Source of the DNA: Dehalococcoidia bacterium
GTDB taxonomy: Bacteria; Chloroflexota; Dehalococcoidia; Bin125
Length of the DNA: 64,000 nt
Direction: 5' to 3'
Assembly (NCBI GenBank): GCA_022822375.1
Contig: JAJEBU010000126.1
Span: 1 to 64,000, forward strand
The first letter of the stretch is position 1. Each line of letters opens with the position of its first letter. Both the position numbers and the translations under genes were made by a program. The notes below the pieces were generated by a model that made no database searches, was not told the DNA's origin, and was given only the letters and a program-made list of their open reading frames with translations. Below are positions 45,258-61,969 of the stretch, in pieces.

Positions 45258-45730
45258 AAGCCAGGCGCCCCGGCGTCGCCGCTGGTCGGACGGCCGTGTC
45301 GTTCTTGCAGCATCGGCACCAGTGCATCGAGCGCGGCGAGGTAGCCGCGCCAACCGAGACCAGCCACGACGCCGTCCATGATCGGCGCGGTGACCAGATT
45401 GTGGCGGAACGCCTCGCGCGCGTGGACGTTGGATAGGTGCACTTCCATCTTGCCGCCCGGGAACGCCTCGAGCGCGTCGCGCAGCGAGTAGCCGTAGTGG
45501 GACAGCGCGCCCGGATTGATGATCAACCCTTCGGCCGAGCGTTCCTGTTGGATGAAATCGATGATCGCGCCCTCGTGGTTGGATTGGTAGGGACGAATCG
45601 TGACGCCCCACTCCTTCGCCCGTTTGTTGACGAGATCCTCGATGTCGGCCAAGGTCTGGGAGCCGTAGATTTCTGGTTGGCGCTGGCCCAGGATGTTCAG
45701 ATTGGGGCCAGAGATCAGCAGCACTTTCAC
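45254..45730 (-). CDS. aroQ: Type II 3-dehydroquinate dehydratase
   Basis: LLISGPNLNILGQRQPEIYG, QSNHEGAIIDFIQ, IINPGALSHYGYSLRDAL, EVHLSNVHAREAFR; GTG start. Confidence 0.96.
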   Translation of the reverse strand: MKVLLISGPNLNILGQRQPEIYGSQTLADIEDLVNKRAKEWGVTIRPYQSNHEGAIIDFIQQERSAEGLIINPGALSHYGYSLRDALEAFPGGKMEVHLSNVHAREAFRHNLVTAPIMDGVVAGLGWRGYLAALDALVPMLQERHGRPTSGDAGAPGL

Positions 45731-56436: not shown

Positions 56437-57494
56437 CACCTCGTACGGTCATCATGATTGCCGCGGCGATCGCCGCGATCATCGCGGCTGCGTCCGCCGT
56501 CGTCGCGGTGTCGCGAAGCCCGCAACAGATCAGCCGCAGCGTGCTCATCGAACCGCCGTCGTCGGGAACGGCGCAGGTCTCGACCGTCGTAATCGCTCCT
56601 GGCGACAGCGCGTCGACCATTGGCCGGCTGCTGCGATCCCATGGCGCGGTTGATTCCCAGACTCGTTTTGAACTACTCGCGCTGCTGATGGATTGGGAGC
56701 ATCAGCTCGAGGCGGGCGAGTACTCGTTCGAGCCCGCGCTGCCCACGTTCGAAGTGCTCAGACGCATACACTCGGGTGAGACCTCGCCACAGCGAGTGAT
56801 CATCCCGGAAGGCCTGAGGATTGAACAGGTGATCGAACGCCTCGCCGCAGCCGAAGTCAGCGATTCGGCGAGCCTCGCCGCAGTCATCTCGGACGGGCGC
56901 ATCGGCGAGGCTGGCCGTTATGCGGCGCAGCGGCCGGCCGGCGCGTCGCTGGAGGGCTATCTCTTCCCTGCCGACTATCGCTTTTCGCTGGAGGCGTCGC
57001 CGCTGGATGTGACGGTCGAGATGCTGCAGCGCCTCGACGAGGCCATCACGCCGGAGATCGCCCGACAAGCCGCGGCCCGCGGTGCGACGATGCACCAGAT
57101 CCTGACCATCGCATCGATCATCGAGCGCGAAGCGGCCGTTGAGCACGAGCGCCGGCTGATCTCGGCCGTGATCTGGAACCGTCTAGTTGCGGGGATGCCG
57201 TTGCAGATGAACTCCACGATCCAGTACGCCGTCGGACAACCGTCGAACTGGTGGAAGGCCGAGCTCTCGGATGCGGACCTCGTGATCGACTCGCCCTATA
57301 ACAGCTATCGCTACAGCGGTTTGCCGCCGACGCCGATTGCATCGCCCGGCCTGCCATCAATCGAGGCCGCGGCCAATCCCGATGACGCCCCCTACCTCTA
57401 CTTCGTCGCGAAGGGCGACGGTACACACGCCTTCTCTCTGACGTATGAAGAGCATCTGGACAATGTCGAGCGCTATCTGGGAGGCTCCGAATGA
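56427..57494 (+). CDS. mltG: Endolytic transglycosylase MltG (YceG-like)
   Basis: N-terminal TM, VIPEGLRIEQVIERLA, LTIASIIEREAAVEHERRLISAVIWNRLVAGMPLQMNSTIQYA, SPYNSYRYSGLPPTPIASPGLPSIEAAANP. Confidence 0.95.
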   Translation: MLLTPRTVIMIAAAIAAIIAAASAVVAVSRSPQQISRSVLIEPPSSGTAQVSTVVIAPGDSASTIGRLLRSHGAVDSQTRFELLALLMDWEHQLEAGEYSFEPALPTFEVLRRIHSGETSPQRVIIPEGLRIEQVIERLAAAEVSDSASLAAVISDGRIGEAGRYAAQRPAGASLEGYLFPADYRFSLEASPLDVTVEMLQRLDEAITPEIARQAAARGATMHQILTIASIIEREAAVEHERRLISAVIWNRLVAGMPLQMNSTIQYAVGQPSNWWKAELSDADLVIDSPYNSYRYSGLPPTPIASPGLPSIEAAANPDDAPYLYFVAKGDGTHAFSLTYEEHLDNVERYLGGSE

Positions 57495-58360
57495 GCTCAG
57501 CTGCCTGGCGCGTCGGCGTGATCGGGCATCCGGTCGCGCACAGCATTTCTCCGCGCTTCCAACAAGCAGGCTTCGACGCAGCGGGGCTTGATGCGCGCTA
57601 CGAAGCGTGGGATCTCGAACCGTCGCAGCTGGAGAGTCACATCGATTCGCTGCGCGAAGAGGACGCGCTCGGCGCGAATGTCACGATTCCGTACAAGGAG
57701 GCCGCGCTGAGGCACATGGACGGCCTGCACGAGACGGCTCGCTTTGTCGGCGCGATCAACACCGTAGTCAACAACGACGGCCACCTGCAGGGCTACAACA
57801 CCGACGTGACCGGCTTTCAGCGTTCGCTGTCGGAGGCGGGAGTCGATCCCGCTGGCGCCCGCGTGGTGCTCTGGGGCGCCGGCGGAGCAGCCCGAGCCGT
57901 CGCTTGGGCACTGATCTGGCGCCGAGCGGCCGCGCTGACCATCGTCAACCGCACCGCCGTCTGAGCGGGGAGATTGCGGCACGACCTCGCCTCGGCGTCT
58001 GCGTCGGCCGCGCTGCAATCGTTCGGAGCCGACGACGATCGCATCGCAGATGCGCTGCGCGGCGCTGATCTCGTTGTCCAATGCACGTCTGTCGGTCTGC
58101 GCGGCAGTGAAACGGCCGCTGACCTGCCGTTCGATCCCGAACGGCTCGGTCCTGACACCTTCGTCGTCGACCTGATCGCGAATCCGCTCGAAACGCCCTT
58201 GGTTCAGGCCGTCAACGCGTCCGGTCGGCGCGCGATTGGCGGGCTGCCGATGCTCGTCTACCAGGGTGCGGCCGCGTTTGAGTTGTGGACGGAGCAGGAA
58301 GCACCGGTTGCGGTGATGATGGCCGCGGCTCACGACGCCATGGCGGGGACGATGACATGA
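57491..58360 (+). pseudogene. aroE: Shikimate dehydrogenase interrupted by an in-frame TGA at 57962-57964
   Basis: First part VGVIGHPVAHSISPRFQ...NVTIPYKEAA...INTVVNNDGHLQGYNTDVTGF...NRTAV; same frame resumes AGRLRHDLASASAS...VVQCTSVGLRG...MLVYQGAAAFELWTEQEAP. Confidence 0.85.
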
Positions 58361-59028
58361 ATGAAGGCGTGACCATCGGCTTCGCCCTGATCGCCGCGTT
58401 CTTCGGCGGTGTCGGCCTGCTGCTCTTCAAGGAGGCGCGCACGCACCGATTTTGGCGACAGCTCGTCGCGCAGAATGACATGGATGCCATCCAGGGCATT
58501 CTCGACCAGGAGCTGGAGCACTGGCGAACCCAGCGTCCGCCGAAGGATGTCAGCGCGGCCGTCTGGTCGGGCGTACAGGGACTGGACCTGGTCAGCGCCT
58601 CGGCCGACCATGTCCGCGTCAGTACCTCCGCCGACCCCGAGTTCGGCACGATCGACGGGCAACGGCAGCAGATCGCATCGTCGTTGGACACGGCCTACGC
58701 CACTGCGCTGCGACTGGTCGAAATGATCTTCTACGACGTGCCAAACTTCCGTCCAACGTTCGTCCGCGTCGACGTGTACACCACGTTCCGCAACGAGGAC
58801 GGCGTCGCTGAGGCACGGCCGATTCTGTGTGTTGAAGCGGATCGTGGATCGGCGATGAGCCTGGATTGGAATCTGCCGCCGCAATCGCTTGCTCGGGAGT
58901 TTGAGGTGATCGCGAACCGCGCGCCGACCGGCGAGCCGCGTCCGATCACGCTGCCCGATGATCGCTTCACCGATATCGTGGACGATGCAGCATCCGTCGC
59001 GTCGACCGACGAGCGGAGGGACGATTGA
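58357..59028 (+). CDS. Membrane-anchored protein of unknown function inside the shikimate operon
   Basis: N-terminal TM VTIGFALIAAFFGGVGLLLF; ATGA overlap with aroE and TGATG overlap with aroC. Confidence 0.75.
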   Translation: MNEGVTIGFALIAAFFGGVGLLLFKEARTHRFWRQLVAQNDMDAIQGILDQELEHWRTQRPPKDVSAAVWSGVQGLDLVSASADHVRVSTSADPEFGTIDGQRQQIASSLDTAYATALRLVEMIFYDVPNFRPTFVRVDVYTTFRNEDGVAEARPILCVEADRGSAMSLDWNLPPQSLAREFEVIANRAPTGEPRPITLPDDRFTDIVDDAASVASTDERRDD

Positions 59029-60227
59029 TGGGCAGCTTTCGCTGGCTCACCGCGGGTGAATCGCATGGCCCGGGTCTGACGGTGATCATCGACGGCGTTC
59101 CGTCGGGGCTGCCGCTGTCGGAGGCGCAGATTCGAGCACAGCTCGCGCGCCGCCAACAGGGCTACGGACGCGGCGGGCGCATGAAGATCGAGACCGACTA
59201 CGCGCAGATCCGCGGCGGCGTCCGGCAGGGACGCACGATCGGCAGCCCGGTCGCGCTGTGGATTGAGAACCGTGACTTTGACCAGGGTCTCGGCCCTGAC
59301 AAGCGGGCATGGCGCGAGACCATGTCGTTGGACGTGGTTGATCCGCCGCCGACGCAGGTGACGCGCGTGCGTCCCGGTCACGCCGATCTGTCCGCGTCGC
59401 TGAAGTACGGCTACGACGACGTCCGCGACTCACTCGAGCGCGCCTCCGCCAGAGAGAGCGCCGCGCGCGTCGGCGCGGGCGCCGTCGCACGACGGCTCTG
59501 CGAAGAACTGGGTTGCGAGTTCAACAGCCACGTCGTGCAGATCGGCTCAGTGGCGCTGGCGCCAGGCGTCCCGCTGGACTGGCCGGAGGTTGAGGCGTCC
59601 CCGGTCCGCTGCGCGGACCCTGATGTTGCGCAAGCGATGATTGACGCGATCAACGCAGCCAAGCAGGACGGCGACACACTCGGTGGGACGCTCGAGGCAC
59701 GCGTCTCGGGTGTGCCATTCGGCTTGGGATCGCACGTCCAGTGGGATCGCAAGTTGAGCGGACGGATTGGCCAAGCCATCCTCTCGATGAACGCGTTCAA
59801 GGGCGTCGAGATCGGCGACGGCTTCAGCGGCGCCGCGCTGACCGGTCGCGGATATCACGACGTCGTCCTGCCCCAGGACGCCTGGGGCGGCCAACCCTGG
59901 CGTCGCCAGACCAATCACGCCGGCGGCATCGAGGGCGGCATCTCCAACGGAGAGGATCTCGTGGTCCGAGTGGCGGTCAAGCCGATCGCGACGCTTGCCC
60001 ACCCGTTGCCGTCCGCTGACCTCTCGACCGGTGAGCGGGTCGAGGCGCACTACGAACGGTCCGATGTCTGCGTCGTGCCGGCCGCAGGCGTGATCGTCGA
60101 AGCGATGCTCGCCTTGGTCCTCGCCGACGCCATCCTGGAGAAGTTCGGCGGAGATTCGCTGTCAGAAACCCGCCGAAACATGGACGCGTTCCTGGCCACC
60201 GCCGTCCCGCGCCAGGAGTGGCCATGA
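59028..60227 (+). CDS. aroC: Chorismate synthase
   Basis: FRWLTAGESHGPGLTVIIDGVPSGLPL, GRGGRMKIETD, RPGHADLSASLKYGYDDVRDSLERASARESAARVGAGAVAR. Confidence 0.98.
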   Translation: MGSFRWLTAGESHGPGLTVIIDGVPSGLPLSEAQIRAQLARRQQGYGRGGRMKIETDYAQIRGGVRQGRTIGSPVALWIENRDFDQGLGPDKRAWRETMSLDVVDPPPTQVTRVRPGHADLSASLKYGYDDVRDSLERASARESAARVGAGAVARRLCEELGCEFNSHVVQIGSVALAPGVPLDWPEVEASPVRCADPDVAQAMIDAINAAKQDGDTLGGTLEARVSGVPFGLGSHVQWDRKLSGRIGQAILSMNAFKGVEIGDGFSGAALTGRGYHDVVLPQDAWGGQPWRRQTNHAGGIEGGISNGEDLVVRVAVKPIATLAHPLPSADLSTGERVEAHYERSDVCVVPAAGVIVEAMLALVLADAILEKFGGDSLSETRRNMDAFLATAVPRQEWP

Positions 60228-61969
60228 GTGCGCCCAACGGGTTCCGCCGCGTCGTGTTGATCGGCTTCAGCGCGACCGGCAAGTCAGTGCTCGCACCGAT
60301 GATTGCGCACCAGCTGGGCTGGGACGCCGTCGACCTCGATGTCGAGATTGAGCGCTCGGCAGGCCGACCGATTCCCGAGATATTCGTCGATGAGGGCGAG
60401 ACAGGCTTCCGCGCCCGCGAACGCGCTGCCGTTCGCGCGGCCTCGGAGCGCGAGGGCTGCGTGATCGCCACCGGCGGCGGTGTTTGGCTCGACGCCGAAA
60501 ACCGCTCGTTGCTCGCCGATGGTGGATTCGTGGTCAGCTTGGAAGCGCGGGCCGCGACGATCCTCGCCCGCTACGCCGAGACCGAACAGGGCACGACCGA
60601 GGTGCGCCCAATGCTCGCCGGCGTCGATCCGCGACGCCGAGTCGAGACCCTCAAGGCTGCGCGTCAACCCTTTTACGCCCTCTCCGATCTGACGGTGCAC
60701 ACGGACGAGATTGCCATCGGCGAGGCGGTCGACGAGATTGTCGATGCCGTCCAGCGGCGATCCGCGCGAGCGCTCGCATCGGACGCCCGTCTGCGCGAGA
60801 TGCAGAGCGGGCCGGGCGTTGCTGCGCCGCCGCAGAACGACTTCGGGCCAGATGTCGCCTGCATCGTCGAGGCTGGAACCTCGCGCTATCCCGTCTACTG
60901 CGCGTGGGGTCTGCTCGAGCGCAGCGGCGACATCATGGATCGATTGGGACTCGGCGGACGCGTCTTCCTGATGGTCGATCAATCAATCGCCGACTCGCAC
61001 GGGGAGTCAGTGATCGCGGCGCTGACGGCAGCCGGACGCTCCGTGCAGTCGTACCGGGTGCCGTCTGGTGAGTCCAGCAAGTCGCTGGCCCAGCTGGACG
61101 CGCTGTATGGCTGGCTGTCCGAGCATCGCGCCGAGCGGCGAGACGTCATCTTCGCGCTCGGCGGCGGCGTGACGACCGATCTGGCTGGTACAGCTGCGGC
61201 GACCTATCTGCGCGGCATGCCGCTCGTCCATGCGCCGACGACCGTGCTCGGCATGGTCGATGCGGCGATCGGTGGCAAGGTCGCCATCGATCTGCCATCA
61301 GGCAAGAATCTGGTCGGCGCCTTCTATCAGCCGCGCGCGGTGTTGGCCGATGTCGCGACGCTCGCGACGTTGCCTGCACGCGAACTGCGCTCGGGTTTCG
61401 CGGAAGTGATCAAGCACGGCTTTATCCGCGACGAGCCGATGCTCGACCTGCTCGAGGCCGAGGCGGACACCCTGCTGAATCCCGCCTCGGCAGCAGAAGA
61501 TCAGCGCAGTCGGCAGCTGTTGGTCGACGTGATCACCCGCAATCAAGCAATCAAGGCGGCGGTCGTGTCGGCGGACGAGCGGGAGTCGGACCTGCGAGCC
61601 ATCCTGAACTACGGCCATACGCTCGGCCACGCGATCGAGGCGGTGACGGGCTACAGCGCCGTCTTGCACGGCGAGGCGGTGGCGATGGGGATGGTCGCCG
61701 TGGCCGAGATCGGCGCAGCGCTGGGCCTCATCGACGAGGCGGTCGTCAGCCGCCACCGACGGTTGCTCGATCGCTTCGGTCTGCCTACGCAAAGTCCGCC
61801 CGGACTCAGTCGCACCGACCTGCTCGATGCGATGTCGCGCGACAAGAAAGTCGTGGGCGGCAAGCAAAACTGGGTGCTGCTGGAGAGCGTGGGCAATCCA
61901 ATCGTGAGGCACAACGTGCCGCCCGAGGTCGTCAGCGAAGCCATCGACACCGTCGTCGGTCCGTCATAG
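60224..61969 (+). CDS. aroKB: Fused shikimate kinase / 3-dehydroquinate synthase
   Basis: N-terminal VVLIGFSATGKSVLAPMIAHQLGWDAVDLDVEIE...CVIATGGGVW (AroK); C-terminal IFALGGGVTTDLAGTAAATYLRGMPLVHAPTTVLGMVDAAIGGKVAIDLPSGKNLVGAFYQP...FAEVIKHGFI (AroB). Confidence 0.96.
   Translation: MSAPNGFRRVVLIGFSATGKSVLAPMIAHQLGWDAVDLDVEIERSAGRPIPEIFVDEGETGFRARERAAVRAASEREGCVIATGGGVWLDAENRSLLADGGFVVSLEARAATILARYAETEQGTTEVRPMLAGVDPRRRVETLKAARQPFYALSDLTVHTDEIAIGEAVDEIVDAVQRRSARALASDARLREMQSGPGVAAPPQNDFGPDVACIVEAGTSRYPVYCAWGLLERSGDIMDRLGLGGRVFLMVDQSIADSHGESVIAALTAAGRSVQSYRVPSGESSKSLAQLDALYGWLSEHRAERRDVIFALGGGVTTDLAGTAAATYLRGMPLVHAPTTVLGMVDAAIGGKVAIDLPSGKNLVGAFYQPRAVLADVATLATLPARELRSGFAEVIKHGFIRDEPMLDLLEAEADTLLNPASAAEDQRSRQLLVDVITRNQAIKAAVVSADERESDLRAILNYGHTLGHAIEAVTGYSAVLHGEAVAMGMVAVAEIGAALGLIDEAVVSRHRRLLDRFGLPTQSPPGLSRTDLLDAMSRDKKVVGGKQNWVLLESVGNPIVRHNVPPEVVSEAIDTVVGPS

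Follow-up and report, generated by a model that had tools for sequence, protein, structure and literature searches.

The shikimate dehydrogenase gene (aroE) in the 64,000-nucleotide stretch of a Dehalococcoidia contig analysed here (the window) is interrupted by one in-frame TGA, which raises the question of whether the organism has lost the enzyme, produces it in an unusual way, or only seems to have lost it because of a wrong base in the assembly. The draft genome comprises 158 contigs that add up to 2.72 Mb and is 95.6% complete.

Translation of positions 57491-58360 (forward strand) gives a single aroE frame of 289 codons, with the TGA at 57962-57964 (codon 158) as the only internal stop and a terminal TGA at 58358-58360. 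An earlier note on this DNA had described two aroE ORFs in the same frame with a lone TGA between them, and both the translation and a check of the sequence agree with this, including the codons it quoted and the lack of a frameshift. The 5' ORF (57491-57964, forward, 157 aa) codes for the substrate-binding domain and, as far as NRTAV, for the beginning of the NADP-binding fold, and the 3' ORF (57974-58360, forward, 128 aa from a TTG) holds the remaining NADP-binding fold and the C-terminal domain; on its own, the latter is probably not translated. In profile searches Shikimate_dh_N was matched by the N-terminal part of the gene and SDH_C by its C-terminal part. When the stop was replaced by X, the frame matched TIGR00507 (AroE) end to end with 220.2 bits against a cut-off of 200.2, which neither half reached alone, and along nearly all of its length the sequence could be aligned with shikimate dehydrogenases of known structure (e.g. 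PDB 2egg, 1nvt and 1nyt). The likeness to AroE extends over the full length, with both domains and, as far as the stop, the NRTxxR/K region, whereas the difference lies in the nonsense codon at the Arg of this motif, leaving the two domains without one uninterrupted frame. A chance pair of ORFs was ruled out, as the sister genome carries the same frame without the stop. No further lesion was seen in the frame, and the gene is otherwise intact, as had been claimed.

The codon replaced by the stop is that of the final residue in the NRTxxR/K stretch, which belongs to the NADP(H) pocket; this position contacts the NADP phosphate through Arg or Lys and is not a redox site of the Cys/Sec kind. In E. 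coli AroE the corresponding residue would be Arg154, judging from its position in the alignment. The equivalents of E. coli Arg150, Thr151 and Arg154 in the mycobacterial enzyme are Arg149, Asn150 and Lys153, which would explain the preference of that enzyme for NADPH (review, PMC7144000).

Comparison with the closest relatives, which had been proposed as a check, showed the interruption in none of them. Fourteen genomes of the same genus were searched for aroE, and the gene was uninterrupted in all 13 that have it; no match was obtained in the remaining one, a fragmented draft of about 470 contigs. The close relatives that a protein search brought up were metagenome-assembled Chloroflexota/Dehalococcoidia. 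In the nearest of them, the sister genome (G007/L002), the AroE protein is 94% identical and the gene is nearly identical around codon 158, except that CGA stands where the window has TGA, and so the suggestion that a CGA-to-TGA change is the simplest explanation is borne out. In the codon alignment an Arg codon was also present at this position in the 16 next-closest homologues (L003-L017 and L041) and in L018, and the distant L019 alone differed, with AAC. A recent nonsense pseudogene should have orthologues that are intact, as they are in the 13 genomes of the genus, and that carry a sense codon there, as the sister and the next-closest homologues do. An uninterrupted gene in close relatives is also what the earlier note had named as refuting its reading, but this outcome cannot tell a mutation and an error apart, since a wrong consensus base at 57962 would look identical to a mutation at the level of the assembly.

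The loss of the enzyme would matter for the organism, as aroE seems to be its only shikimate dehydrogenase gene. The search for a second aroE, also proposed earlier, was carried out and found no second shikimate dehydrogenase domain, aroE copy or quinate/shikimate paralogue in the assembly (95.6% complete), and plasmids and viral contigs yielded no near copies of the locus. A type I dehydroquinase of the kind present in fused dehydratase-dehydrogenase enzymes was considered and not found; a type II 3-dehydroquinate dehydratase domain (aroQ, 45320-45727, reverse strand) is present instead. This gene is intact, as are chorismate synthase (aroC, 59025-60227, forward) and a 583-aa aroK-aroB fusion of shikimate kinase and 3-dehydroquinate synthase (60218-61969, forward). 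With a true null aroE, one step of the pathway should be blocked, unless the cells take up aromatic compounds or the 4-5% of the genome that the assembly lacks contains another copy. As the single aroE lies beside intact aroQ, aroKB and aroC, a fixed null would carry a high cost in cells that do not obtain aromatic compounds from their surroundings, and this speaks against a real mutation.

The lesion appears to be young. The sister contig is collinear over 15.7 kb with 92.8% identity, and the dN/dS of aroE against the sister was 0.10 before the stop and 0.15 after it, both between the extremes seen in ten neighbouring genes (0.04 and 0.29). These are simple Nei-Gojobori counts from few substitutions, and for glmU, topA, dprA and aroE they come from gapped alignments that are a little rough. 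Purifying selection seems to act on both halves of aroE, with no sign of relaxation after the stop, and such constraint, similar to that of the neighbours, suggests little time since the interruption.

The explanation that we favour, at slightly better than even probability, is that the sampled strain recently acquired a C-to-T nonsense mutation. A transition at a CpG would have turned the CGA Arg codon into TGA at codon 158 of a single-copy aroE that is normal in all other respects, and the altered base would be present in the strain or population represented by the metagenome-assembled genome. The protein would break off within the NADP-binding fold after 157 residues, and no shikimate dehydrogenase would be made. 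The event would be recent, with the downstream part of the gene still evolving under constraint. The analysis shows the stop, the sense codon in relatives, the single copy and the constraint, and from these we infer a base that is truly present in the organism and a product without activity.

This recent mutation is only slightly favoured over an error in the consensus, or a minority strain variant picked by the assembler, in which case aroE would be intact in the living population. Such an error has a considerable chance of being the correct explanation, although somewhat below even, and it is nearly as likely as the mutation because the lesion sits in a single-copy gene beside intact pathway genes. 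The draft state of the genome with its 158 contigs, the intact aroE in every close relative where the gene was found, and the isolated nature of the change, a single-base transition in a conserved gene without relaxed selection, are all consistent with it. However, the consensus does not seem to be generally poor, as a comparison of 164 kb of the contig, the one contig that this baseline covers, with a genome of the same genus gave about 149 homologous segments and, apart from aroE, no clearly interrupted conserved gene. General decay of the contig was likewise rejected, as the other flagged stops were shadow frames or gene boundaries, judging by overlapping ORFs and base composition.

Whether mutation or error, the finding is biologically ordinary, and beyond the one-base lesion no functional system or mechanism is present. 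The gene resembles an ordinary recent pseudogene in having one substitution, no other damage and intact counterparts in the relatives that have it, but differs from one in that the lesion hits a single-copy biosynthetic gene next to otherwise intact genes of the pathway. At face value, this uncultured lineage of Chloroflexota (related to Dehalococcoidia) would be auxotrophic for aromatic compounds. The case is also a warning that apparent auxotrophy in a metagenome-assembled genome can hang on a single base.

UGA is a working stop in this genome, as indicated by the frameshift TGA of prfB, the anticodon of tRNA-Trp and the neighbouring genes ending in TGA, mltG among them. The prfB gene (L119, G000:C53:16233-17270, minus strand) keeps the canonical in-frame programmed-frameshift site CTT-TGA-C, which serves the self-regulation of RF2. 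The tRNA-Trp has the anticodon CCA, and of all the tRNAs found only one carries UCA, encoded by a convincing tRNA-Sec gene (L120, G000:C24:6442-6535). Genome-wide reassignment of TGA, which the earlier note had considered unlikely, is excluded by these same observations, tRNA-Sec being the only decoder of UGA in the set. In the same tRNA collection we observed a tRNA-Arg with the anticodon GCG (L083, 1501-1577; G000:C141:1770-1843); most bacteria use tRNA-Arg ACG, read as ICG.

The tRNA-Sec gene shows that UGA can carry a second meaning in this genome, and the lineage probably makes selenoproteins. Some full-length AroE could then arise by reading through the stop, either by near-cognate misreading or by insertion of selenocysteine, and the codons past the stop do look constrained. 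However, a recent lesion would leave these codons looking constrained in any case, and the stop was seen in no close relative. Selenocysteine at codon 158 was rejected and is not supported, as the homologues have Arg and not Cys at this phosphate-contacting position, the RNA just downstream of the stop, where a SECIS-like hairpin would be expected, folds no better than its shuffles (z 0.12), and the region had no Rfam match at the gathering score. Read-through in either form is very unlikely. Even less likely is a split AroE, with the two ORFs made as separate chains that assemble into an active enzyme and the second started from the TTG at 57974, 10 bases past the stop and preceded by a GGGGAG stretch, as the TTG and GGGGAG are ordinary codons of the uninterrupted sister gene, the purine stretch nearly abuts the TTG and leaves too little spacing to serve as a Shine-Dalgarno site, the break interrupts the Rossmann fold with loss of the conserved basic residue, and no close relative has a split gene. 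Even with read-through and a two-chain enzyme counted together, an active shikimate dehydrogenase from the interrupted gene is highly improbable, and of the four options listed in the earlier note the recent mutation and the consensus error stand while these two are disfavoured.

The genes around aroE are arranged in an operon-like layout, in which the start of aroE overlaps the end of mltG, its terminal stop overlaps the next ORF, and aroC and the aroK-aroB fusion lie downstream. Between aroE and aroC there is a 222-aa ORF (58360-59028) with no Pfam match, yet comparison with the sister genome shows strong conservation (dN/dS 0.06).
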